From Lampris incognitus (lineage: Eukaryota > Chordata > Actinopteri > Lampriformes > Lampridae), in NCBI RefSeq assembly GCF_029633865.1, contig NC_079215.1, forward strand, positions 49,955,843 to 50,019,842: 64,000 nt of DNA, given 5' to 3'. Below are positions 1-62,860 of this stretch, one piece after another (the first letter of the stretch is position 1; the number at the start of each line of letters is the position of its first letter). A model generated the notes under the pieces. The model saw nothing but the letters and a program-made list of their open reading frames with translations, ran no database searches and was not told the origin of the DNA. The position numbers and the translations under genes were made by a program.

Positions 1-3000
1 AGGAGTTGCAGGAAAAACATGCCCAGGAGATAAGGGAGCTGGAGAGTGAGAAGGACAGGCTGCTAAAGGAAGAAAGCCAGGCAGCAGCTGAAGGTAAGGA
101 GGACAGTGCTTCGGGTCCCTGCACAGCTCAGTGAGTAGGGCATGAATTGGATTTACTAAGAATGGCAACATCCCTGGGGATAAAAAAAATGTCTGCATAG
201 GTAGGCAACTGCTTTTTAAAGTCCACCGAGAGACAGTCTAGGGCAAGCATTTTCAACAAACATATTTATAGAAACAGAAGACTGGCTTCTGTCCAATCAC
301 TTGAACACAGCTTAAATAATGTCATAACCTCACAGTGTCAAATCTCATCTCTAGCTATCTACACAGCGCACTGTTTTTATGTGATGAACATTTCTGTCCA
401 TTTTAGCCATGGAAGCACTGACAGCAGCTCACCGTAAGGAGATGGAGAGTGAGGTTGAAAAGGCCAGAAGGCTGGCTGGAGGGGGTGCACATAGCGACAC
501 TATGTACAGAGAACAGATGTAAGTTTATAATAGACATATCATTGTCATAGGTACACAAGACCGCGACCCCTTGCAAGATAGGGCATTAATGACTCGCTCT
601 ACAATATGTGCATGTGTGTGTCAGGCCCCCGGCTGACCCCTTATGCAGTGAGTTGGATGCGCTGTCAGCACGCTTGTCTCAGAAGTGCTTGGAGGTGAGC
701 ATGTCTGAGCAGAATGTCAAAGGCAGAGAGACAGAGCTTGGCCGCATGGAGAGAGAGATGGCGCAGCTCCGCAGAGAGAACAAGGTTTGGGAAGAAAGGG
801 GGTACAGTTTATAAGGAGTACCTTGTGTAATTCTGTTTAAACACAGTGTTACATACAACGTTTAGTAGAGTTATGGCTAAACCTCTATGCCTTTTTTCTT
901 TATTATCTACTTTCATTAACAAGAACAACAAAGGTCTGGTATCATTATGCCTACTAGCTCACGGTGTATATTCGTTCTGCGAATTTAATTTAAAAATTCC
1001 TGTTTTTTTTTTTTTTTTAATTTTAGGATCTTAAGGCTAAGCTGGCTGAGGAGATTAGTCGCATGCGTTATTTCATCACAGGGCAGAGGTCAGAGATGAA
1101 ATCCCTCAGGAACACCAGCCGTAGCCCCTCGGAGTTGGAGGTATCGATGATAAAAAATGACGTTTACATCACTGTATTTGAATTGGAGCCTACACCCTAT
1201 CAATTTACATTAAAAATTGCTCATAGGCCAATAATACCTTTTTGTTCAGTTTGAAGGACAGCAGAATCTATGAAGCAGGGGTTTGCATGCTCTGTTCACA
1301 ATGTGACCTCAGTGTCTTCTGCAACACCAACCTTAGTTTGTCTTAAGGGACCCTTGGTTGTGCGGGTATTGTGAGATATTGCTTCATGTGTGTCACAGCC
1401 AAGGGGAGAACAGCTGGCAGTGTTTTCATGGGGGAGCTAAGCGTTTAGTTGGGACACGTGTGCACCAGAGTGTTGAACCCGCTAACTACTGAATCAACAG
1501 ACGGATTCGTTCACTTTTAACTTTGTGTGTCCTCTCCTCGTTTCCAGCTCCCCGTGGCAACACTCCCATTTCTAGTTTGCCACAGTTTGCCACCTTCTGG
1601 TTTAGAGTATACTGCCATCTACTGCCCGGTTTACGTATTTCCTTAGCCGATGACGGCTTACGTCACTCGTGTCCCCCAGCGGAAGCTCTCGGGTTCAGCC
1701 TTATTGCCGACTAGCGCTTGCTGGAGCCCGCAAAGGTCCCCGCAGAGATCAGCTTTCCATCGGTGTTGAAAAATCACATGTGTCGCCCCAGTTCCACTAA
1801 TGAGGTCACATTTTGTGTGGGTCAGATGCTGCTGAGAGTAAAGGAAAACGAGGTGGAGTACCTTAAGAAGGAAAACGGCTGTCTGCAGAGCGAAGTGGAG
1901 TTCCTGAAGAAGGTGCACTTTTAAATCCTCCAGCTCACTTCGTTGAACGTCTTATCACGGTTACAAAAAAAAAGATGACTTTCACATATATATACACTAC
2001 CGTTCAAAAGTTTGGGATCACCCAAACAATTTTGTGTTTTCCATGAAAAGTCACACTTATTCACCACCATATGTTGTGAAATGAATAGAAAATAGAGTCA
2101 AGACATTGACAAGGTTAGAAATAATGATTTGTATTTGAAATAAGATTTTTTTTACATCAAACTTTGCTTTCGTCAAAGAATCCTCCATTTGCAGCAATTA
2201 CAGCATTGCAGACCTTTGGCATTCTAGCTGTTAATTTGTTGAGGTAATCTGGAGAAATTGCACCCCACGCTTCCAGAAGCAGCTCCCACAAGTTGGATTG
2301 GTTGGATGGGCACTTCTTTGAGCAGATTGAGTTTCTGGAGCATCACATTTGTGGGGTCAATTAAACGCTCAAAATGGCCAGAAAAAGAGAACTTTCATCT
2401 GAAACTCGACAGTCTATTCTTGTTCTTAGAAATGAAGCTATTCCATGCGAGAAATTGCTAAGAAATTGAAGATTTCCTACACCGGTGTGTACTACTCCCT
2501 TCAGAGGACAGCACAAACAGGCTCTAACAGGTACTATTTAATGAAGATGCCAGTTGGGGACCTGTGAGGCGTCTGTTTCTCAAACTAGAGACTCTAATGT
2601 ACTTATCTTCTTGCTCAGTTGTGCAACGCGGCCTCCCACTTCTTTTTCTACTCTGGTTAGAGCCTGTTTGTGCTGTCCTCTGAAGGGAGTAGTACACACC
2701 GGTGTAGGAAATCTTCAATTTCTTAGCAATTTCTCGCATGGAATAGCTTCATTTCTAAGAACAAGAATAGACTGTCGAGTTTCAGATGAAAGTTCTCTTT
2801 TTCTGGCCATTTTGAGCGTTTAATTGACCCCACAAATGTGATGCTCCAGAAACTCAATCTGCTCAAAGAAGTGCCCATCCAACCAATCCAACTTGTGGGA
2901 GCTGCTTCTGGAAGCGTGGGGTGCAATTTCTCCAGATTACCTCAACAAATTAACAGCTAGAATGCCAAAGGTCTGCAATGCTGTAATTGCTGCAAATGGA

Positions 3001-3427
3001 GGATTCTTTGACGAAAGCAAAGTTTGATGTAAAAAAAATCTTATTTCAAATACAAATCATTATTTCTAACCTTGTCAATGTCTTGACTCTATTTTCTATT
3101 CATTTCACAACATATGGTGGTGAATAAGTGTGACTTTTCATGGAAAACACAAAATTGTTTGGGTGATCCCAAACTTTTGAACGGTAGTGTATAAAGAAAC
3201 GGTGGTACCTTTATTATGAATCTAATGATTATTCGCTGCCTGACTTTGACGAAGCAACCGTCTGCTGTGTCCCACCTTAGGAGAAGGCGGCAGCTTATGA
3301 GCGCTACCAGGAGGCTTATGTAGAGTTCAATGCATGGAAAGGTCGGAGCCAACTGGAGATTGGCTCCCTGAGAGAGCATCTGAAACTGGCCAACGCTGCA
3401 CTAAAGGAAGGGGCAGGAGACACTTGA
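1..3427 (+). CDS. triobp: triobp-like coiled-coil protein, 3' end of gene (partial, six exons)
   Basis: Coding exons read 1-93, 407-518, 625-784, 1027-1140, 1826-1912 and 3281-3427 (TGA), with GT-AG borders and phases that join without a break. The start lies before the window. The product is an almost continuous charged coiled coil. It carries the motif SQKCLE, then an SELEMLLRVKENEVEYLKKE segment, and ends near LREHLKLANAALKE. That is the C-terminal layout of TRIOBP (Tara) and its paralogue MPRIP, which bind and bundle F-actin and link to Rho/Trio signalling. LLRVKENE...YLKKE is closer to my memory of TRIOBP, and the neighbours are human chromosome 22q13 genes, so triobp is preferred. PH domains would be upstream and out of view. 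A poly(A) signal AATAAA lies at 3519-3524. The last intron holds a foldback transposon. The family is sure; the paralogue is less so. Confidence 0.8.
1991..3193. mobile_element. Foldback element made from the 5' part of a Tc1-type transposon
   Basis: Two arms, 1991-2528 and 2656-3193, are inverted copies of each other, 538 bp each, around a 127-bp centre. Both ends start with a TA and the CACTACCGTTCAAAAGTTTG-type terminus common in fish Tc1 elements. The reading frames at 2258-2461 (+) and 2723-2926 (-) translate identically and sit symmetrically about position 2592. Each arm encodes the N-terminal helix-turn-helix of a Tc1 transposase (MARKRELSSETRQ, then KLKISYTGVYYSLQ). On the minus strand the frame runs on into the centre (SGRPRCTTEQEDKYI, LTGPQLASSLNST). 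The catalytic half is absent. It sits inside the last triobp intron. Confidence 0.85.
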
Positions 3428-12700: not shown

Positions 12701-15700
12701 GAACGGAGTCCATGCAGGCTGGCATCAGTATGCAGGACATACAGTTTCCTGGGGTTGGCAAAGCCGAGGACTGGAGCAGTTGTCAACTTCTCTATAAGTG
12801 CTTTGAATGTGTTTTCGCATTCTGAGGTCCATTTTCCATCAAATTATCATTTTAGGTCCGAGTTTGAGAAGACCTTGGAACTTTTGGACTTCTTCCGGGG
12901 TGTAAGGTAAGGTAACCAGCAGTCAAGAGTTTTTAGAGGTTTGGCAATTTTTGCGTAGTCATTGCCGAATCTCCTATAATACCCGGTGAATACTAGGAAG
13001 GATTTCAGCTCACTGATGTTGTTTGGCCTGGGCCAGGTTGTTAGTGAGCTGATTTTTTCCAGGGTCAATTTCCACTCCGTTTTCCGAGACTACATGGCCC
13101 AAGTACTTGACTGACTTCTTGAAAAAGTGTCACTTTTTGGGTGATAACTTGAGGCCACACTCATTAAGCCTGTTGAGGACATGCATAAGGCACCGTTCAT
13201 GTTCTTCAAGTGTGTCTGTAAACACCATGAGGTCATTGAGGAACACCAGGACTTCTTTGAGGTTGAGAGAGCCCATGCATTTCTCCATGACTCGCTGGAA
13301 GGTTGACGGAGCATTTGTGACTCCCTGGGGCATCCTTTTGAATTCCCAGAAACCCACGGGTGGGACAAAAGCTGTTTTTGTGCTTGTCCTCTTCAGCCAT
13401 TTCCACCTGATAGTAGCCAGACTTTAAGTCCATGAAAGAGAACCACTTTGATCCTGTGAGATTAGCAAAGGTTTCCTTGATGCTCGGTAAGGTATTTATG
13501 GTCTGGTTGTTCAACTTCCTGTGATCGATGCATAGGTGGATGGTGCCATTCCTCTTCTTGACGACTACTATTGGTGAAGCGAAGGGGCGTTCAGATTCTC
13601 TGATGATGTTGGCATCCAACAGCTCTTTCAGGTGGAGTCTTACAGCTTCATAGTCTGAGGGGTGAATGGGCCTTGCCCTCTGCTTGAAGGGTGTTGGGTC
13701 AGAGAGGTGGAACTTGTGCTTGACTGCCGTTGTGTGACCATAGTCGAGGTTGCCTATTGCAACAACTTCAGAGATGGGAGTCAGCTTTGTTATGATCTGC
13801 TCTTTCCATACCTCTGGAAAAGGGGAATCACTGAAGTTGAAATTGATTGTGTTTTCATGGCTTGTTGAGCTTGTGGCCGTACATTTAGCAGCAGTGCCGG
13901 GTGGTTGTGACACATTGTGCTCTCCGGCTTTGTTCGAGGTTGACAGTAGAGAGAGAGAAGGATGGAAAGCTCTGCTATGCTGCGGTTCGCTGGCACTGTT
14001 ATGTTATGTGCTGTCTCATTCTTGACAGGGATAGGGAATTTGAAGGATGTCTGATGATTGCTTGATATCCTGTAGGTACAGAAGGACAGACCACTGGGTA
14101 GACTTGATTGAGTGGAAGGCTCCACTAAGAGAGGGACTCCAACACTCGTGGGCACCTTTCTGGTGTATCCATTCAACACCATCTTCTCACCAGCTGGGAT
14201 TACGATGGCTTTCTTGCATTTCAGTTTGACTGTCCCCACCATGCCATTGTCTTGTTCGGTTTTGTATGTGCTTCGAACCAGGGGTATATTGGTGCCTAAA
14301 AGGGCAGGAAACTCTGTTGGGCCTTCAGTCTGGAATGATGAGAGCTAACGTGCTGACAAGCTCAGCTTTTCCTGCAATGCTTTCCGGAAGCAGTGTGATG
14401 ACCTTAACATAGCCTAGGTAAGGCACATCTTGACCTCCAGCGCCCTCCACTTCAAGGATTTTTCTGAGGGCCAGAATCGGCAGAGAAGGCAGGTAAGTAT
14501 CATGAAAAGACTTGGAAATGGTAGTCACCTGTCAGCCTTAGTCAAGAATTGAATTACACTAGATTCATGTCTGTGAATGTTCTCATTCATCCAGGTCATG
14601 GTTATCCAAAGGAATTGAATCAAGTGCAACTGGACTTGGTATATACACTAGATTCCTTCAATAGTGGCGACAGCAATGGATCTTGGGCCAACTAACCTAC
14701 TGAGAAGCCCATCTTCACTGGACTCTATCTGTTCACATTTGGCTTTTTGGTTTCCATTTCATCTTGGGACTTTGATCTCTGCTGTGGCTTCATTATGTCC
14801 CTGTACTGGAAGCCGGTCCAGTTTAAAAGCAGTCCTGCTTTTGCTCTCCATTCATTTTGCTTGGCTTTCAATTCTTTGTACTTGCGATCAACAGCAGCTT
14901 TGTTGATAGCGTTCTCACATACCTTGGCTATGTGGCCATCTTCACCACATCTGAATTAGAACCAGGCTCTAGACTGAGGTTTGGATGTCACGTGGTGAGC
15001 TGGTGCCTCGACTCAACCCATGGGCAGGTCTGAGCTTTCTGCTGTCTGTCTCACGGTTTCTGTTTGTTAGGCTTCTTGGTGCTGAGCTGCAGTTTCATTT
15101 CAGCAAGCTGCTTCTTCAGCTCTGTCTCTAAGATAAACACCTGTAACACACTTGCATTTGGATCTGTGTATGGGGACATGTCAGGCACAGAATGCACATT
15201 CACAGTGGCTTTTGGCTTGGAGGTTCCAAAATGGCAGTGCATTCGATCCAGTTGAGTTGCCCTCCTATTCTCTTCTTTCCGCAGCTCTAACAGCAGCTCT
15301 GCAAAATCGAAAGATTTTTCATATTTCAGCTCCAATTGCATAATGAGTGTGTGGTCCCAACAGTTGCATTTGAACTGTTTCAATAGCTGATGGCTTGCAG
15401 CAGACTGGCTCACTCCATTTCGCTTCACAGCAGTGCTCAGCAGCACATGGAGCCTCTGTAGATACTCTGCTGCCTTCTCACCTGGGTTTTGATAGGTCTT
15501 CAAGAACCCTGCAAAGATTTCATCACCGTCCTTAATGAGACCATAAGCGGAGTCCAGCAGTTTCACATATGCTCTGGGTTGAGTGGAGGAGCCTAGCTGC
15601 TTCACATCATCTGAGGCTGGGGGAAGCAGACTTCCCAGTATATTCCTACACTGAACATCGACTGGGGCGCCGTCTTGGAACATCAAGTCTACGTGGAGGC

Positions 15701-25927: not shown

Positions 25928-28900
25928 ATGTCTACTCTGAAGCCATTCAATAAACTGCCCGCTTTAAATGAGGCAAACATCCTGGTAAGTTTATTTTCGA
26001 GCTTTAGTGAACGTTGCGTAGAAAGCGGCGGCACTGCCTGAACGCTAGCTTAGTGACGAAAACAGCCGCTGGTTGTGTTGAATGGATTGTCTTTTTCCTT
26101 TCTTCTGCGGTGGGCTCTGTTCCGTTTTTCCTCGCAGCTGGTGGAAAATGAAGAGCGATTCCAGCAGAGTTTAGCTGACGTGATGGTGGAAGAGAAGAAG
26201 TTCGTCATTAAAGTGTGAGTTAAAACTGTTGTGTTTGCAAACCGTTCAGGTAGAAGTAACACGACGTTGTGACGCACTCAACAGTTGTGTTCATGTTAGA
26301 CCAATTTATCATGGACTGTATGTAGTTAAGCCAGTTCTCCCGTAGTTTGTGAACTTAGAATAAGTTCCAAGAGGGTTTATCATTAGACATAGTTGTATAA
26401 TCATTGTACCGTGGTCTCTCTGGACTACTTTATTAATCAAAGTCTGATAAGTTATTTAACATCGGAGCTGTGATTGTGTGTGTGTGTGTCTATACCAACG
26501 AAGAATGCTTGCTAGGCCTATTACTACTACTACTGCTGCTGCTTTAGGCTGCTCCCGTTGGAGGTCGCCACAGCGGATCATCCGTTTCCATTTCTTGCTG
26601 TCTTCTGCATCTTCCTTTGTCACACCAGCCACCTACATGTCCTCCCTCATCACATCTATAAACTTCCTCTTTGGCCTTCCTCTTTTCCTCTTCCCTGGCA
26701 GCTCCATATTCAACATCCTTCTCCCAATATGCCCAGCATCTCTCCTCCACACATGTCCAAGCCATCTCAATCTTGCCTATCTTGCTTTGTCTCCAAACCG
26801 TCCAACTTGAGCGGTCCCTCTAATATAGTCATTCCTAATCCTGTCCTTCTTCGTCACTCCCAGTGAAAATCTTAGCGTCAGAATGTTTACTAGGCCTGTT
26901 TGTTGTAATTTGGATGGGTAAGATAGCTGGATATTTCCCATATCCTCCATGCCACTGCCGATCCTTCGCAATATGGATTATACATTATGTGTTGTTTGCT
27001 GTGTCAAACAGGAGACTGGCTAAGAATCTGCCACTGCCCGTGAAGAATGAAGAGTCCCGTCCCAGAATAGACCTGGTGGTGTTCATCATCAACCTGACTT
27101 CAGAACTTAGGTAATTTAATATATCCTGTGATATTGGGCTATACAAATAAAATTGACATATGAAGGGTTGTCTTTATGCATGCTCAATAATCCAGGTAAG
27201 AAAATCAAAGAAGGTTGAATCAGTTCATTTGGCTACAACGTTTATTGACAGATACGCTTCATCACTCATCTAAGTGACCTCTTCAGTCTAAACTGACTGC
27301 AGGTATCCCCACCCTTATAAACAATACAGTGGCATAACGACCGAAACCATCGACCAGTTTCATATGCAAATATGGGCGTGACCATTAACTACAGTTTCAA
27401 TGGCCATGTGTAGTGTTCACAGAGGATTTGGGAATGCTTGCAATCACAGCATTATAAGATTGTAAGGTGGCGGCAGATGTACTCTTGGCCCCCTCACCCC
27501 TTGGTTCAGGGATGGTCATTCCCTCTCAACATACTAGATGGTCTCTTTGACTCCCCATTCAAACTAGCGTTCCTCCCCATCAAGGATGTGCACATCTTCC
27601 TCCTTGAAAGAGTGGCCACTGGCCTGTAGACGGGTGTAGACTGCGGAGTTCTGGTCTGACACGTTAGCTCTCCTGTGTTGTGCCATTCTCTTGGCCAGTG
27701 TCTGTTTGGTTTCCCCAATGTACAAACACCAATTCCAATGAAGTTGGGATGTTGTGTAAAACGTGAATAAAAACAGAATACAATGATTTGCAAATCCTTT
27801 TCGACCTATATTCAATTGAATACACTACAAAGACAAGATATTTAATGTTCAAACTGATAAACTTTATTGTTTTTGCAAATTTTCACTCATTTTGAATTTG
27901 ATGCCTGTAACATGCTCCAAAGAAGCTGGGACAGGGGTAACAAAAGACTGGGAAAGTTGAGGATTGCTCAAAAAACACAAGTTTGGAACATTCCATAGAT
28001 TAATTGGAAACAGGTGAGTGTCATGATTGGGTATAAAAGGAGCATCCCTGAAAGGCTCAGTCGTTCACAAGCAAGGATGGGGCGAGGTTTACCACTTTGT
28101 GAACAACTGCGTGAGCAACTAGTCCAACAGTTTAAGAACAACGTTTCTCAATGTACAATTGCAAGGAATTTAGGGATTTCATCATCTACAGTCCATAATA
28201 TCATCAAAAGATTCAGAGAATCCGGACAAATCTCTGCACGTAAGCGGCAAGGCCGAAAACCAACATTGAATGCCCGTGACCTTCGATCCCTCAGGCGGCA
28301 CTACATTAAAAATCGACATCATTCTGTAAAGGATATTACCACATAGGCTCAGGAATACTTCGGAAAACCATTGTCAGTTAACACAGTTCGTTGCTACATC
28401 TACAAGTGCAAGTTAAAACTCTACCATGCAAAGCGAAAGCTATATATAAACAACACCCAGAAACGCCGCTGGCTTCTCTGGGCCCAAGCTCATCTGAGAT
28501 GGACTGACGCAAAGTGGAAAAGTGTGCTGTGGTCTGACGAGTACACATTTCAGATTGTTTTTGGAAATCATGGATGTCGTGTCCTCCGGGCTAAAGAGGA
28601 AAAGGACCATCCAGATTGTTATCAGCGCAAAGTTCAAAAGCCAGCATCTGTGATGGTATGGGGGTGTGTTAGTGCCCATGGCATGGGTAACTTGCACATC
28701 TGTGAAGGCACCATAAATGCTGAAAGGTACATACAGGTTTTGGAGCAACATATGCTGCCATCCAAGCGACGTCTTTTTCAGGGACGTCCCTGCTTATTTC
28801 AGCAAGACAATACCAAGCCACATTCTGCACGTATTACAACAGCGTGACTTCGTAGTAAGAGTGCAGGTACTAGACTGGCCTACCTGCAGTCCAGACCTGT

Positions 28901-31900
28901 CTCCCTTTGAAAATGTGTGGCGCATTATGAAGTGCAAAATACGACAACGGAGACCCCGGACTGTTGAGCAACTGAAGTCGTACATCAAGCAATAATGGGA
29001 AAGAATTCCACTTGCAAAGCTTCAACAATTAGTGTCCTCAGTTCCCAAATGCTTATTGAGTGTTGTTAAAAGGAAAGGTGATGTAACACAGTGGTAAACA
29101 TGCCCCTGTCCCAGCTTTTTGGAACGTGCTGCAGGCATCAAATTCAAAATGCGTGAATATTTGCAAAAAAACAATAATGTTTATCAGTTTGAACATTAAA
29201 TATCTTGTCTTTGTAGTGTATTCAATTGAATATAGGTCAAAAAGGATTTGCAAATCATAGTATTCTGTTTTTGGTTTTTTTTTTCTAAATTTATTTCTGT
29301 TTCCCCCCCCCCCCCAATTTTAGTGGCCAATCGCTCCCTATTTTAAGTCAAACACCCACCCTCGTACTGTATGCGTTCACCAACTGCATCTCTCCGGCCG
29401 GCAGTCTCGAAGGAGATGCCTCACCACTTTCGTGACAAGGCGAATCCAGGCCGAACCACTGCTGCTTTTATTTAAGTTTTACACAACGTCCCAACTTCAT
29501 TGGAATTGGGGTTTGTACAAGTCACAGCAATCTTCTTGGCGTTTAACAGCATACACTATAGTGTTCTGTTTGAGCAACTGAGACGCGTTGTTTGGAAAAT
29601 AAGCGCCTCAACATCTTTTTCAAACACCGTGTCTCAGTTGCTTTCAAACCCCAAAACACGCTGCACCAGAAGTTGGTCCACCCCAAGGATTGGGTCCCCT
29701 GGCACAAACGGCAATATACACTCACTGGCCACTTTATTAGGTACACCTTGCTAGTACCGGGTTGGACCCCCTTTTGCCTTCAGAACTGCCTTAATCCTTC
29801 GTGGCATAGATTCAACAAGGTACTGGAAACATTCCTCAGAGAGTTTGGTCCATATTGACATGATAGCATCACGCAGTTGCTGCAGATTTGTCGGCTGCAC
29901 ATCCATGATGCGAATCTCCCAGTCCACCACATCCCAAAGGTGCTCTATTGGATTGCTTTGCTTTCATGTTGTTAACGCCAAATTCTGACCCTACCATCCG
30001 AATGTTGCAGCAGAAATCGAGACTCATCAGACCAGGCGACGTTTTTCCAATCTTCTATTGTCCAATTTTGGTGAGCCTGTGCGAATTGTAGCCTCAGTTT
30101 CCTGTTCTTAGCTGACAGGAGTGGCACCCGGTGTGGTCTTCTGCTGCTGTAGCCCATCTGCCTCAAGGTTCGACGTATTGTGCGTTCAGAGATGCTCTTC
30201 TGCATACCTCGGTTGTAATGCGTGGTTATTTGAGTTACTGTTGCCTTTCTATCAGCTCGAACCAGTCTGGCCATTCTCCTCTGACCTCTGGCATCAACAA
30301 GGCATTTTCACCCACAGAACTGCCGCTCACTGGATATTTTCTCTTTTTCAGACCATTCTCTGTAAACCCTAGAGATGGTTGTGCGTGAAAATCCCAGTAG
30401 ATCAGCAGTTTCTGAAATGCTCAGACCAGCCCATCTGGCACCAACAACCATGCCACGTTCAAAGTCACTTAAATCACCTTTCTTCCCCATTCTGATGCTG
30501 GGTTTGAACTGCAGCAGATCGTCTTGACCATGTCTACATGCCTAAATGCATTGAGTTGCTGCCATGTGATTGGCTGATAAGAAATTTGCGTTAACGAGCA
30601 GTTGGACAGGTGTGCCTAATAAAGTGGCCGGTGAGTGTAGTGTACGCTGTTAAGTACCAGGAGGATTGCCATGACTTGTACATTGGGGAAACTAAACAGA
30701 TGCTGGTCAAGAGGATGGCCCAGCACAGGAGAGTAAACCCATCAGGCCAGGACTCCGCAGTCTACATCCATCTACAGTCTAGTGGCCACTCTTTCAAGGA
30801 TGAGGATGTGCACATCCTTGATAGAGAGGGATGCTGGTTTGACGATGGAGTCAAAGAGGCCATCTATGTGAAGAAGGAATGACCATCCAGCTTACAATCT
30901 TACAATGCTGTAATTTCAGATGTTCCTAAATCCTCTGAATAGTACATATGGCCAATGAAACTGTAGTTAATGGTCACGCCCATACCTGCATATGAAACTG
31001 GCTGTGGGTTTCGGTCATTATGCCACTGTATTCTTTATAAGGGTGGGGATACCTGCAGTCGGTTTAGACTGAAGAGGTCACTTAGATGAGTGATGAAACG
31101 TATCTGTCAATAAACGTATCCAGATGAAATGACCATCATCTACTACTACTACTGCTGCTGCTTCTTTCGGCTGCTCCCGTTGGAGGTCGCCACAGCAGAT
31201 CATCCCTTTCCATTTCTTCCTGTCCTCTGCATCTTCCTCTGTCACACCAGCCACCTACATGTCCTCCCTCACCACATCCATAAACCTCCTCTTTGGCCTT
31301 CCTCTTTTCCTCTTACGTGGCAGTGCCATATTCATCATCCTTCTCCCAATATACCCAGTATCTCTCCTCTACACATGTCCAAGCCATCTCAATCTTGCCT
31401 CTCTTGCTTTGTCTCCAAACCGTCCAACTTGAGCGGTCCCTCTAATATAGTCATTCCTAATCCTGTCCTTCTTCGTCACTCCCAGTGAAAATCTTAGCAT
31501 CTTCAACTCTGCCACCTCCAGCTCCGCCTCCTGTCTTTTTGTCAGTGCCCCTGTCTCCAAACCATATAACATAACTGGTCTCACAACCGTCTTGTAAACC
31601 TTCCCTTTAACTCTTGCTGGTACCCTTCTGTCGCAAGTCACTCCTGACACTCTTCTCCACCCTACCTGCACTCTCTTCTTCACCTCTCTTCTGCACTCTC
31701 CGTTACTTTGGACAGTTGACCCCAAGTATTTAAACTCATACGCCTTCATCACCTCTACTCCATGCATCCTCACTATTCCGCTGTCCTCCCTCTCATTCAC
31801 GCATAGGTATTCCGTCTTGCTCCTACTGACTTTCATTCCACTTCATTTCATTTCATTCCATATGTCAAACCACCTAAAGAGACCTAAAAGGTAAGATAGA

Positions 31901-36224: not shown

Positions 36225-37804
36225 CACTGCTCAAAAAAATAAAGGGAACACATAAGCAATGCAATGTAGCTCCAAGTCAATCACACTTTTGAGATATCAA
36301 CCTGTCCAGTTAGGAAGCAACACTGATTTGTGAATCAATTTCACCTGTTGGTAAATTGTCTAATTTCCACCTGGTGGAAATTAGACAATTTGCAAGACAA
36401 CCCCTATAAAAGGAATGGATTTGCAGGTGGTGGCCACAGACCATTTGCCTGTCCTCATCTTTTCTGGCCGATCTTTGGTTAGTTTTTCATTTTGCTAGTG
36501 CCCTCACCACTAGAGGTGGCATGAGGCGGTATCTGCAACCTACAGAAGTTGCTCAGGTAGTGCAGCTCATCCAGGATGGCACATCAATGCGTGCTGTGGC
36601 AAGAAGATTTGATGTGTCTCCCAGCACAGTGTCCAGAGCATGGAGGAGGTACCAGGAGACAGGCCAGTACACCAGAAGACGTGGAGGGGGCCGCAGGAGG
36701 ACAACAACCCCGCAGCAGGACCGCTATCTGGTCCTTTGTGCAAGGAGGAACAGGAGGAGCACTGCCGGAGCCCTACAAAACGACCTTCAACAGGCCACTA
36801 ATGTGCAGGTTTCTGCTCAAACAGTGAGAAACAGAATGCATGAGGATGGTATGAGGGCCCGACGTCCACAATTGGGGCCTGTGCTCACAGCCCAACACCG
36901 TGCAGCCCGATTGACCTTTGCCAGAGAACATCTTGGTTGGCAGATTCACCATTGGCGCCCTGTGCTCTTCACAGATGAGAGCAGGTTCACACTGAACACA
37001 TGTGACAGACATGAGAGAGTCTGGAGACGCTGTGGAGAACGTTCTGCTGCCTGCAACATCCTCCAGCATGACCGGTTTGGCGGTGGGTCAGTGATGGTCT
37101 GGGGAGGCATATCCTTGGACGGCCGCACAGACCTCTACGTGCTAGCCAGAGGTACCATGACTGCCATTAGGTACCGGGATGAGATCCTCAGACCCATTGT
37201 CAGACCATATGCTGGTGCAATGGGCCCTGGGTTCCTGCTCATACATGACAATGCTCGTCCTCATGTGGCCAGAGTGTGTCAGCAGTTCCTGTATGTCGAG
37301 GGCATTGATGCTATGGACTGGCCTGCACGTTTCCCAGACCTGAATCCAATTGAGCACCTCTGGGACATCATGTCTCGTACCATCCGCCAACGCGATGTCG
37401 CACCACAGACTGTCCAGGAGTTGACCGATACCCTGATCCAGGTCTGGGAGGAGATCCCTCAGGAGACCATCCGTCGTCTCATCAGGAGCATGCCCAGACA
37501 TTGTAGGGAGTGCATACAGGCACGTGGAGGCCACACACACTACTGAGCCTCATTTTGAATCGTCTTGAAGAATTTCCACAGAAGTTGGATCAGCCTATGT
37601 TCTCATTTTCCACTTTGATTTTCAGTATGATTCTGAATCCAGACCTTAATGGGCTAATGATTTTGATTTCCATTGATCATTCTTAGGTTATTTTGCTCTA
37701 AACACATTCCTCTGTCTAATGAATAAAGATTTTCAGCTGAAATATTTCATTCATCTAGGTCTATATTGTGTTTTTAGGTATTCCCTTTATTTTTTTGAGC
37801 AGTG
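36225..37804 (+). mobile_element. Tc1-type transposon, apparently complete
   Basis: Terminal inverted repeats CACTGCTCAAAAAAATAAAG (left) and its complement at 37784-37804 are flanked by TA duplications at 36223-36224 and 37805-37806. A short inner palindrome (TAATTTCCACCTGGTGGAAATTA) spans 36361-36383. It encloses one uninterrupted transposase. It is intergenic between cenpm and mb. Confidence 0.92.
36521..37546 (+). CDS. Tc1 transposase, DD34E, 341 aa, open reading frame intact
   Basis: Transposase that cuts and pastes its element at TA sites. An N-terminal paired-like helix-turn-helix (about residues 1-50, [20 protein letters not shown]) is followed by a basic linker ([11 protein letters not shown]) and a second helix-turn-helix. 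The RNase H-like core has catalytic residues in [17 protein letters not shown] and LNPIEHLWD. Exactly 34 residues separate the second Asp from the Glu, so all three are present. The start [14 protein letters not shown] is the first ATG after the left arm, and the length is normal for Tc1. No stop or shift is seen. Whether it is active cannot be told from sequence. Confidence 0.93.
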
Positions 37805-41255: not shown

Positions 41256-43890
<2,635 letters not shown>

Positions 43891-51600: not shown

Positions 51601-54600
51601 CATCTTGTAAACCTTCCCTTTAACTCTTGCTGGTACCCTTCTATCACAAATCACTCCTGTCACTCTTCTCCACCCACTTCACCCTGCCTGCACTCTCTTC
51701 TTCACTTCTCTTCTGCACTCCAGTTGACCCCAAGTATTTAAACTCATCCATCTTCGTCACCTCTACTCCTTGCATCCTCACCATTCTGCTGTCATGCTTC
51801 TCATTCACACATATGTATTCTGTCTTGCTCCTACTGACTTTCATTACTCTTCTCTCCAGTGCATACCTCCACCTCTCCAGGCTCTCCTCAACCTGCTCCC
51901 TACTCTCGCTACAGATCACAATGTCATCCGCAAACATCATAGTCCATGGAGACTCCTGCCTGATCTCATCCGTCAACCTGTCCATCAGCGTTGCAAACAA
52001 GAAAGGGTTCAGAGCTGATCCTTGATGTAATCCCACCTCCACTTTGAATCCATCTGTCATTCCAACTGCACACCTCACCACTGTCACACTGCCCTCATAC
52101 ATATCCTGCACCACTCCTACAATCTTCTCTGCCACACCTGACTTCTTCATACAATACCACACCTCCTCTGTCGGCACCCTGTCATATGTTTTCTCTAAAT
52201 TCACAAAGACATAATGTAACTCCTTCTGGCCTTCTCTATACTTCTCTGTCAATATTCTCAAAGCAAACATCGCATCTGTAGTGCTCTTTTGTGGCATGAA
52301 ACCATACTGCTGCTCGCTAATCATCACCTCTCCTCTTAACCTAGATTCCACAGCTCTTGCCAATATCTTCATGCTGTGGCTGATCAAGTTTATACCTCTG
52401 AAGTTACTACAGCTCTGCACATCACCCTTTTTCTTGAAAATTGGTACCAGTATGCTTCTTCTCCACTCTTAAGGCATCCTGTCACTTTGCAAGGTTGTGT
52501 TAAGCAATCTAGTTAAAAACTCCACTGCCATCTCTCCTAAACACCTCCATGCCTCCACAGATATGTCATCTAGACCAGTGTTTCTCAACCGGGGGTCCGC
52601 GGACCCCTAGTGGTCCGTAGTGTAATTGCAAGGGGTCTGTGAAAATAAAATATCTTTAAAAAAAAAGATCCTATGACATTTATAGAAATAGGATTATTTT
52701 ACTCAAATGTGACTGAAAAGTCCTGTTACCCTTTATCTACCTAAACTATAAAGGGTAACAGGACTTTTTTCTCTAATTACATCTGTTTCACAAGTGTAAT
52801 TTATTGTATTTCAATAAGAGATCTCGCTCCCATTTGCATTGTTAAAAGTTACTGCATAAAAATTCTGTTGTTACATATATCTGAAAGTTACTGAATACAT
52901 ATTCTGTTTTGTTACATATATATGAAAGTTACTGCATAAGAATTCTGTTTTGTTAACTATATCTACACTCACCGGCCACTTTATTAGGCATACCTGTCCA
53001 ACTGCTTGTTAACGCAAATTTTTAATCAGCCAATCACATGGCAGCAACTCAATGCATTTAGGCATGTAGACATGGTCAAGACGATCTGCTGCAGTTCAAA
53101 CCGAGCATCAGAATGGGGAAGAAAGGTGATTTAAGTGACTTTGAACGTGGCATGGTTGTTGGTGCCAGACGAGCTGGTCTGAGTATTTCAGAAACTGCTG
53201 ATCTACTGGAATTTTCACGCACAACCATCTCTAGGGTTTACAGAGAATGGTCCGAAAAAGAGAAAATATCCAGTGAGCAGCAGTTCTGTGGGCGAAAATG
53301 CCTTGTTGATGCCAGAGGTCAGGGGAGAATGGCCAGACTGGTTCGAGCTGATAGAAAGGCAACAGTAACTCAAATAACCACTCATTACAACCGAGGTATG
53401 CAGAAGAGCATCTCTGAACGCACAACACGTCGAACCTTGAGGCAGATGGGCTACAGCAGCAGAAGACCACACCGGGTGCCACTCCTGTCAGCTAAGAACA
53501 GGAAACTGAGGCTACAATTTGCACAGGCTCACCAAAATTGGACAATAGAAGATTGGAAAAACGTTGCCTGGTCTGATGAGTCTCGATTTCTGCTGCGACA
53601 TTCGGATGGTAGGGTCAGAATTTGGTGTCAACAACATGAAAGCATGGATCCATCCTGCCTTGTATCAACGGTTCAGGCTGGTGGTGGTGGTGTAATGGTG
53701 TGGGGGATATTTTCTTGGCACACTTTGGGCCCCTTAGTACCAATTGAGCATCGTGTCAACGCCACAGCCTACCTGAGTATTGTTGCTGACCATGTCCATC
53801 CCTTTATGACCACAGTGTTCCCATCTTCTGATGGTTACTTCCAGCAGGATAATGCGCCATGTCATAAAGCTCAAATCATCTCAGACTGGTTTCTTGAACA
53901 TGACAATGAGTTCACTGTACTCAAATGGCCTCCACAGTCACCAGATCTCAATCCAATAGAGCACCTTTGGGATGTGGTGGACCGGGAGATTCGCATCATG
54001 GATGTGCAGCCGACAAATCTGCAGCAACTGCGTGATGCTATCATGTCAATATGGACCAAACTCTCTGAGGAATGTTTCCAGTACCTTGTTGAATCTATGC
54101 CATGAAGGATTAAGGCAGTTCTGAAGGCAAAAGGGGGTCCAACCCGGTACTAGCAAGGTGTACCTAATAAAGTGGCCAGTGAGTGTAAGTTACAACTGAA
54201 AGCTCTTATTTTTGCCCCAAAGAGTGAATAAATGCTATAATGCAATTTAAAATGCAGTTTCTACTGTTTCTATCAAATTGCAACCCCCCTTCCCCAAGAT
54301 CAGGTGGAGGGGTCCTCAGGGTAGATCAAAAATACGCAGGGGGTCCAGGACTCCAAAAAGGTTGAGAACCACTGATCTAGACCAACTGCTTTCATCCTCT
54401 TCATAGCTGCCCTCACTTCCTCCTTGCTAATCCGCTGCACTTCCTGATTCACTATCCCCACCTCATCCAACCTTCTCTCTCTCTCGTTTTCTTCATTCGT
54501 CAGCCCCTCAAAGTACTTCTTACACCTTTTCAACACACTCTCCTTGCTTGTCAGCACATTTTCATCTCAATCCTTCATCGCCCTAACCTACTGCACATCC

Positions 54601-61507: not shown

Positions 61508-62860
61508 AGCTGTGTGCAAACGTGTGGGCACCCCTGTTCAAATTGCATCTTTGGTTGAATTTCTTAAAAATGAAAATAAACGCACATTTTGAAGGGTACT
61601 AACTTAGACATGACATTTTTACATTTTATTGCACAATTACCATTTACCAGATGTAATATTTAGGGGGATAAAAACTAAAAACAGTAAATCAGGCATGTGA
61701 AAAGCTTGGTAACACATCTTTGACAGAAATCCTCTTCAGAATATTTCCTATAGCCGACAAAAAATTCTTTCTAATCTTTTATTGATTTTTTTTTTTCAGT
61801 CTCTTCCCTGCAGAACTCTTCCAGCTCAAAAATATTCCTTGGTCTTATTGCACGCAATACATTTTTTAAATCTCCCCACAGATTTCTAATAATATTTAAC
61901 CAGTCATGAAGTCCATCTCAACACCTCAATATTTGTGTTCCTGTCAGTATTTCATAGATTGACTCTGAAATATGTTATGCATCATAGTCTTGATGTAGTA
62001 TCCAACCTTTTCAACCTCTGCAGCGTCATCTCTAAATTGGGGATATTGCTTGACAAAATTCGTAAATGTCAAGATGAATTAATTTTTATTTCCTCTTTCA
62101 TAATGTTCTCTGTGGCACTGGCTCCTACACAACCACTAATCACAATGTTCAGCGAGATTTTTTTTTCTTCATATGTTCCTACTGTCGTCACCCCCCCCCC
62201 CCAGAAAAAATGTATTAGATGTGTTTTTGGTTAATATCCTTTTGAAATCATCACCAGCCAGTCAGACTAGCTTGGTCTAGTCAGAAAGGCATGAACTGAT
62301 GAAGCCTCTTGGATGAGAGGCGAAACGTCTTCACGGATATATACCAAGTCCAGTTGCACTTGATTCAATTCCTTTGGATAACCATGACCTGGATGAATGA
62401 GAACATTCACAGACATCCTTTTGAAATCTCTTCCACACATGATATTTGTGTTAGCAGCACCATATTGTGTTGGGTGTTGCATTAAGACACCAATGACTGC
62501 AAACCCTTTTCTGCACATCCGTTGCAATAATATACAAGTTGTCTAGTCTACAAGCAGCTGTATCAAAGATTTTTTTTTCCTCTCTTCCAGATCTTGCCTT
62601 GACTAAAATTGTTCCTCTTAACTTGCTTCTCATAATGATGTCTCTGGGAGTGGAATGTCAAAAGCTGGAAGCAACAGATCTTTTTTTAGCGTTCCCCTGC
62701 TTAGTAAGAGTGTATTTACTTTGAAGTCCTTAGTCACCGGTATAAAGGAGCCCATGGTTGTGAGCACAGCATCCCGAGAGGTTACAAGCCTCAGAGTATT
62801 TATTAACCCTTGTAGTTGTGCTTGGCTCAAAGATTCATAGCTGGCTACAGGAAAACTGTT
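61508..62860 (-). mobile_element. Ancient DNA-transposon-like relic
   Basis: The left end GTGTGCAAACGTGTGGGCAC, then CCCTGTTCAAATTGCAT, matches a terminus I know from old fish Tc1/mariner-like repeats. The body (CTTGATGTAGTATCCAACCT, GGCACTGGCTCC) fits that consensus on the minus strand. No usable transposase. The right end is not clearly found. It is interrupted by the 165-bp unit at 62250-62414. Confidence 0.4.
62250..62414 (+). mobile_element. 165-bp Penelope-related unit with a hammerhead-like motif
   Basis: A clean 14-bp duplication ATCCTTTTGAAATC flanks it (62236-62249 and 62415-62428). Inside, in order: a hairpin GACTAG-CTTGGT-CTAGTC (about 62266-62283), a hammerhead-like core CTGATGA (62296-62302), a 6-bp stem GCCTCT/AGAGGC and GAAACGTC (to about 62329). 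Then comes an 80-base tail shared with the insertion at 14567. No protein is encoded, so it must be mobilised in trans, presumably by a Penelope-like element. Confidence 0.7.

Follow-up and report, generated by a model that had tools for sequence, protein, structure and literature searches.

Is the short, ribozyme-bearing unit at 62250-62414 of this stretch of fish DNA a mobile element in its own right, or the end of something longer? The unit is 165 bp long and lies between exact 14-bp direct repeats (ATCCTTTTGAAATC), its left and right target site duplications, at 62236-62249 and 62415-62428; in the window (the whole 64-kb stretch of DNA analysed here), exact 14-mer pairs 100-300 nt apart occur at only three places when simple sequence is excluded. 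Within the unit the hammerhead-like letters are CTGATGA (62296-62302), an extra A (62303), a stem in which GCCTCTT (62304-62310) pairs with GAGAGGC (62315-62321) around a GGAT loop, and then GAAACGTC, with GAAAC at 62322-62326 and GTC at 62327-62329. Sequence and fold also give a 6-bp hairpin (GACTAG/CTAGTC) upstream, at 62265-62282 on the forward strand. The preliminary description had recorded the unit, its flanking duplications, the core letters and the hairpin, and all of these hold; its 6-bp core stem gains one T.G pair, and it had missed a second pairing, of 62292-62295 with 62330-62333, which resembles hammerhead stem I and of which only three of the four pairs are common in the family. 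The hammerhead-like motif as we draw it (62292-62333, forward strand; based on sequence and comparative pairs, Rfam being negative) is made up of stem I, CTGATGA, the extra A, stem II, GAA (62322-62324) and ACGT (62325-62328), and its predicted cut on the same strand falls after C62329. The unit had been described as a minimal retrozyme, a parasite of the Penelope machinery. Our answer, which we hold with little doubt, is that 62250-62414 is one 5'-truncated insertion (forward strand) of an endonuclease-containing Penelope-like element (PLE) in a fish genome. It consists of the 3' end (UTR/pseudo-LTR, which holds the hairpin, and tail) of a family that we call family 1, and as a unit the 165-bp element is ordinary.

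The source genome that we searched is 1.48 Gb in size. There are 6,922 matches in it to the unit's 40-nt 3' end (3290+3632, with at most two mismatches), none to the reversed control, and 2685+2779 to the 40-nt 5' end. Twenty other high-identity copies were fetched, each of which matches the 165 bp over 164-165 bases. Eighteen of them extend upstream past the equivalent of 62250 in sequence common to at least four others; L011 and L027, the remaining two, are inverted twins arranged head to head, and by eye their forward part begins within a few bases of that point. Further upstream, GIY-YIG endonuclease motifs are present in a reading frame in copies L009, L012 and L022. In copy L123 the 165-bp sequence lies behind a 257-amino-acid GIY-YIG frame, and in copy L135 a 5'-truncated frame of 672 amino acids with reverse transcriptase (RT; YVDD) and GIY-YIG motifs is followed by the UTR and then by the 165-bp sequence (motifs by eye in both). 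The single ORF with RT and C-terminal GIY-YIG that is typical of these elements is therefore recognizable by eye in L135 and L123. Pfam scores for these frames are weak (GIY-YIG 22.6 bits in L121, equal to the cut-off, and 21.8 bits in L123, just under it, with no GIY-YIG match in the L122 or L135 frames; RVT_1 13.1 bits in the L135 frame against a cut-off of 29.6), so the assignment of the PLE domains rests partly on motifs read by eye. NCBIfam gave weak matches only, to the L135 frame, and a PDB sequence search with the L123 frame gave no match. A genome search with the same frame produced 23,596 first-look candidates, and 148 were scored and listed as matches. We found no related DNA among viral contigs beyond one exact 22-mer, none among phages, and no paper in a literature search using a peptide of the element. 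The proposed link to the Penelope machinery is right, and the same 3' end is present behind GIY-YIG (L123) or RT/GIY-YIG (L135) frames.

The ends of the copies were examined in a positional sample of 100 family-1 copies among the matches listed (L029-L118 and L124-L133), picked by an exact 40-nt tail and all on one contig (C1); 99 were analysed, L117 being dropped because it had no alignment anchored at its 3' end. Measured from the tail end, the forward starts spread from 45 to at least 400 nt (the alignment limit), with 53 of the 99 copies shorter than 163 nt, 46 longer than 167 and none at 163-167. These starts are alignment-based (those of L038, L080 and L124 look misplaced by eye), and the insertion boundary is not settled in 31 of the 99 copies. 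Thirty-nine copies start below 119 and so are without a complete core. PLE insertions are characterized by inverted or tandem pseudo-LTRs (pLTRs) with a target site duplication, and by an optional tail of 30-40 bp. Here, 52 of the 99 copies have an inverted partial copy (an inverted twin) at their left, 54 are flanked by exact repeats 10-15 bp long, and the final 36 nt of the unit (62379-62414, forward strand), which match the published PLE "tail", form the forward end of insertions in family 1, the forward ends in our sample being tailed by selection. The inverted segments begin at positions 30-37, counted from the end of the tail, in 37 of the 52 twins, so these are without nearly all of the last 36 nt. 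These features are published hallmarks of PLEs: the tail of the Anolis PLE is reported to lie between two RT start sites (PMC11167929), and inverted pLTRs with a 31-bp tail are described in Adineta vaga (PMC3846280). The scattered 5' ends, the inverted twins and the match to the published tail therefore identify the unit as a 5'-truncated PLE insertion. By eye, the near-palindrome GGTATATATCC holds several of the junctions between inverted and forward cDNAs in the sampled copies (L029-L133), which suggests annealing at this sequence as a way of joining the two cDNAs. The window itself has a second copy of the family-1 3' end, at 14567-14645 on the reverse strand, which is truncated to 79 bp, has no hammerhead core, is flanked by a duplication of about 10 bp (GAATCTAGTG, by eye) and sits inside a Ty3/gypsy-like element (named by eye).

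The same observations bear on the retrozyme reading, under which the unit would be a non-autonomous 165-bp element that is propagated as a hammerhead-cut circular RNA and uses PLE proteins. Animal retrozyme RNAs are reported to measure 170-400 nt (PMC7229834), a range close to the size of the unit, and its type I-like core and exact target site duplication also suit that reading; the animal non-LTR retrozymes described there likewise have type I hammerheads, are non-coding and a few hundred nucleotides long, and have a duplication when one is present. They differ in having tandem repeats, canonical hammerheads and circular RNA, where the unit studied here is a single truncated PLE end. Animal retrozymes occur as tandem dimers or multimers of about 150-450 bp, and we saw no adjacent tandem copy at any of the 99 analysed loci (69 of which hold only about 140 bases downstream); at one locus (L029) a further partial match lies on the same strand, at a distance of about 1.1 kb. 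Each unit has one core, and therefore no double cut; stem III has no loop, the 3' end is the PLE tail, and the copies run on into the PLE UTR and ORF. The preliminary description had expected genome copies to share a start point, and among the 99 copies none recurs at 62250. It had reasoned, too, that other copies being longer Penelope elements with random truncation points would speak against a retrozyme, and the other copies are indeed longer PLEs or varied truncations. With 5' ends scattered among the 99 copies, copies continuing into the PLE and no adjacent tandem unit at those loci, we reject a separate minimal retrozyme as very improbable.

The one tandem array that we saw, at L134 (contig C2, about 32.00-32.02 Mb), has a period of about 2,360 bp, with a family-1 PLE 3' end in each of the three units that the 5.1 kb fetched contains. 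We considered it as a series of tandem PLEs and rejected this, as the sequence fetched is a satellite that carries a PLE end.

As a PLE insertion, the unit would have arisen as follows. The RT/GIY-YIG protein would nick the target (as in the published Poseidon mechanism) and would start reverse transcription of the element's RNA from a set internal position, the tail end ...CACAGAC; copying would stop after 165 nt, and repair would leave the 14-bp duplication. The hammerhead-like motif would come along in copies long enough to include it, since its place is upstream of position 85 as counted from the start site. We infer these enzymatic steps, as we would any self-cleavage. Two of the closest known systems are themselves PLEs. 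PAc of Anolis carolinensis, an endonuclease-containing PLE of the Penelope/Poseidon type (PMC11167929), also has RT and GIY-YIG in one ORF, a hammerhead motif in its terminal region, and internal RT start sites with a tail of 30-40 bp between them; it differs in that the start of its ORF is reported to lie at hammerhead stem II, while the frame from the ATG in loop II here closes after 16 codons (by eye). The Pen families of Adineta vaga (PMC3846280) share inverted pLTRs, an optional 31-bp tail, target site duplications of 8-10 bp, palindromes at junctions and a TATATATA tract; they differ in having a rotifer host and few insertions, against thousands of copies here, many of them very short.

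Is the hammerhead-like core a real property of such ends? The pattern CTGANGA, 0-1 base, a 5-7-bp stem and GAAAC occurs twice in the window (at 62296 and 31069) and in none of 200 first-order Markov copies of it, and both occurrences are PLE ends. The occurrence at 31069 belongs to a remnant of a second PLE family (30676-31132, forward strand), in which a GIY-YIG-like fragment (Pfam 15.2 bits, below the cut-off) is followed by CTGAAGA-G-stem-GAAACGTA. Another copy of this family lies at 27169-27725 on the reverse strand and has a tail of its own; by eye, four of 20 family-2 copies have one. We aligned, free of gaps, 91 of 99 distinct 50-nt core regions, 67 from family 1 and 24 from family 2 and its relatives (including a diverged subtype in L050). 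Eight rows (L025, L036:1799, L040, L053:1415, L062:814, L093:311, L102 and L129:299) were left out as shifted or truncated, and the scan left out L001-L008, L119 and L120. More diverged hammerhead-like PLE cores were also seen at L050:1985-2201 (GAGACTGAAGAG...GAAACGTTTCTC), L082:371-420 and L149:491-540, which perhaps form a third subfamily of PLEs whose stem I has 4 bp.

Four other regions of the window deserve mention. A myoglobin-like exon at 41719-42087 (reverse strand) has as its best PDB sequence matches 1myt, 3qm5 and 2nrl (E about 2e-34), which we take to be fish myoglobins; on this basis the source is most likely a bony fish. Long open frames at 36410-37546 (378 amino acids) and 53062-54105 (347 amino acids), both on the forward strand, presumably encode Tc1/mariner-like transposases. 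The segment 52963-53644, which takes in part of the second frame, is 97% similar to an inverted copy at 29959-30640, and 1991-3193 is a 1.2-kb palindrome with a 94% match to its own reverse complement.

In the core alignment the hammerhead structure (stem I of 4 bp, stem II of 7 bp) has 90.9% of its cells paired, versus 42-58% in slid registers, and both the number of paired cells and the covariation score exceed all 500 shuffles and all slid registers. Double changes are found at pairs 6-45 and 7-44 in stem I (23 of 91 cores each) and at 18-33 and 20-31 in stem II (24 of 91 each); they represent essentially one family split, and so stand for about four independent compensations, not for a hundred. 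The outermost (fourth) pair of stem I fails in 59 of the 91 cores. The letters CUGANGA...GAA(A)...UH, with stems I and II, are thus all present in the alignment, and the core letters are common to the two PLE families. Stem III is the exception: in both families it is loop-less, GAA and the cut being separated by just ACGU (or by something very similar), which could pair only between two RNAs. PLE hammerheads are reported to be usually minimal and without helix III (PMC6155905). An extra base follows CTGANGA in both families as well; it is mostly A in family 1 and mostly G in family 2. The extra A that had struck the preliminary description as odd, and as a possible sign of a degenerate or variant form, is therefore a family trait and not the decay of one copy.

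These comparisons also address the view that the core is a decayed relic or a coincidental hairpin with no ribozyme ancestry. Rfam found no hammerhead, either in the 64 kb at the gathering score or in 351 bases at E 10; the monomer fold of the window copy pairs GAUG with CGUC, a competing helix; and two of the five comparative measures are not above shuffles (six pairs with double changes versus 5.9, and the 17 further pair types). Against it stand the core letters common to two families, the double changes (two in stem I, two in stem II), the paired cells and covariation that beat every control, and the lack of conservation of the competing helix, one pair of which is unpaired in 75 of the 91 copies. 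A relic or coincidence thus appears quite unlikely to us, and the hammerhead-like core is, on the Markov controls and pair counts, more than chance and a part of the PLE end. The covariance check that had been suggested comes out favourably as comparative pair counts, though not with the Rfam models.

Such a core might still be a poor ribozyme. The plus-strand hammerhead of the viroid CChMVd has one extra A (A10) between A9 and stem II, as the core here does, although no homology is claimed. In that viroid, A10 is reported to lower trans-cleavage moderately and A10G to be strongly detrimental (PMC3705267); this counts against easy activity of the PLE hammerheads, those of family 2 above all.

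The predicted cut is 85 nt from the tail end, and cleavage in vivo that shaped the insertions would mean that part of the template is cut after 62329 and that many cDNAs end just 3' of it. In the family-1 PLE, cDNAs of both classes often stop in the 25 nt 3' of the predicted scissile bond, and few stop immediately past it: 33 of the 99 forward starts lie at 60-85 nt and three at 86-111, and among the 37 inverted cDNAs with the standard start the numbers are 17 and five. L096, L097 and L125 start at the predicted cut itself. In the whole genome, exact nested patterns reaching to positions 84, 85, 86 and 87 have 4331, 4215, 4018 and 3975 matches, respectively. The drop of 197 copies from 85 to 86 includes up to 100 substitutions in which GAAAYRT is kept, and the drop of 116 from 84 to 85 includes up to 54 substitutions. 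By subtraction, about 97 copies may end exactly at the cut (85), about 62 at 84 and at most 43 at 86 (where substitutions are included). These remainders are rough: the patterns used to count substitutions stop three bases before the nested patterns do and overlook small deletions, and the 62 take in a variant with a single base deleted, such as that in L053. The 197-copy step, taken as a cleavage footprint, is weakened by C-to-T substitutions, and its remainder is only suggestive: among the matches listed, the class that reaches 85 and not 86 has four members, three of which are such substitutions (L156-L158) and one a truncation (L096). Ends are most frequent not at 85 but at 72-78, where a near-palindromic ATATAT tract could allow two cDNAs to be joined; RT could also be stalled by a folded stem with no cut being made; and the Anolis PLE inserts without cleavage in vitro, with no reads ending at its cut (PMC11167929). 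The pile-up of truncations within 25 nt 3' of the predicted cut is suggestive and not proof of cleavage in vivo, which we regard as possible but doubtful.

For the biology of PLEs, these results carry a warning, namely that a short ribozyme-bearing insertion flanked by a target site duplication resembles a retrozyme and can be a truncated PLE end. We suggest, quite tentatively, that thousands of short insertions may be a fossil record of hammerhead action: a hammerhead that has no loop in stem III and one additional purine in its core may cut some of the template RNA in vivo, or block it, possibly as a dimer through the palindrome ACGU. Work in vitro on the Anolis element (PMC11167929) did not show hammerhead cleavage in vivo; the approximately 6,900 copies in this fish genome offer a genomic test of it.
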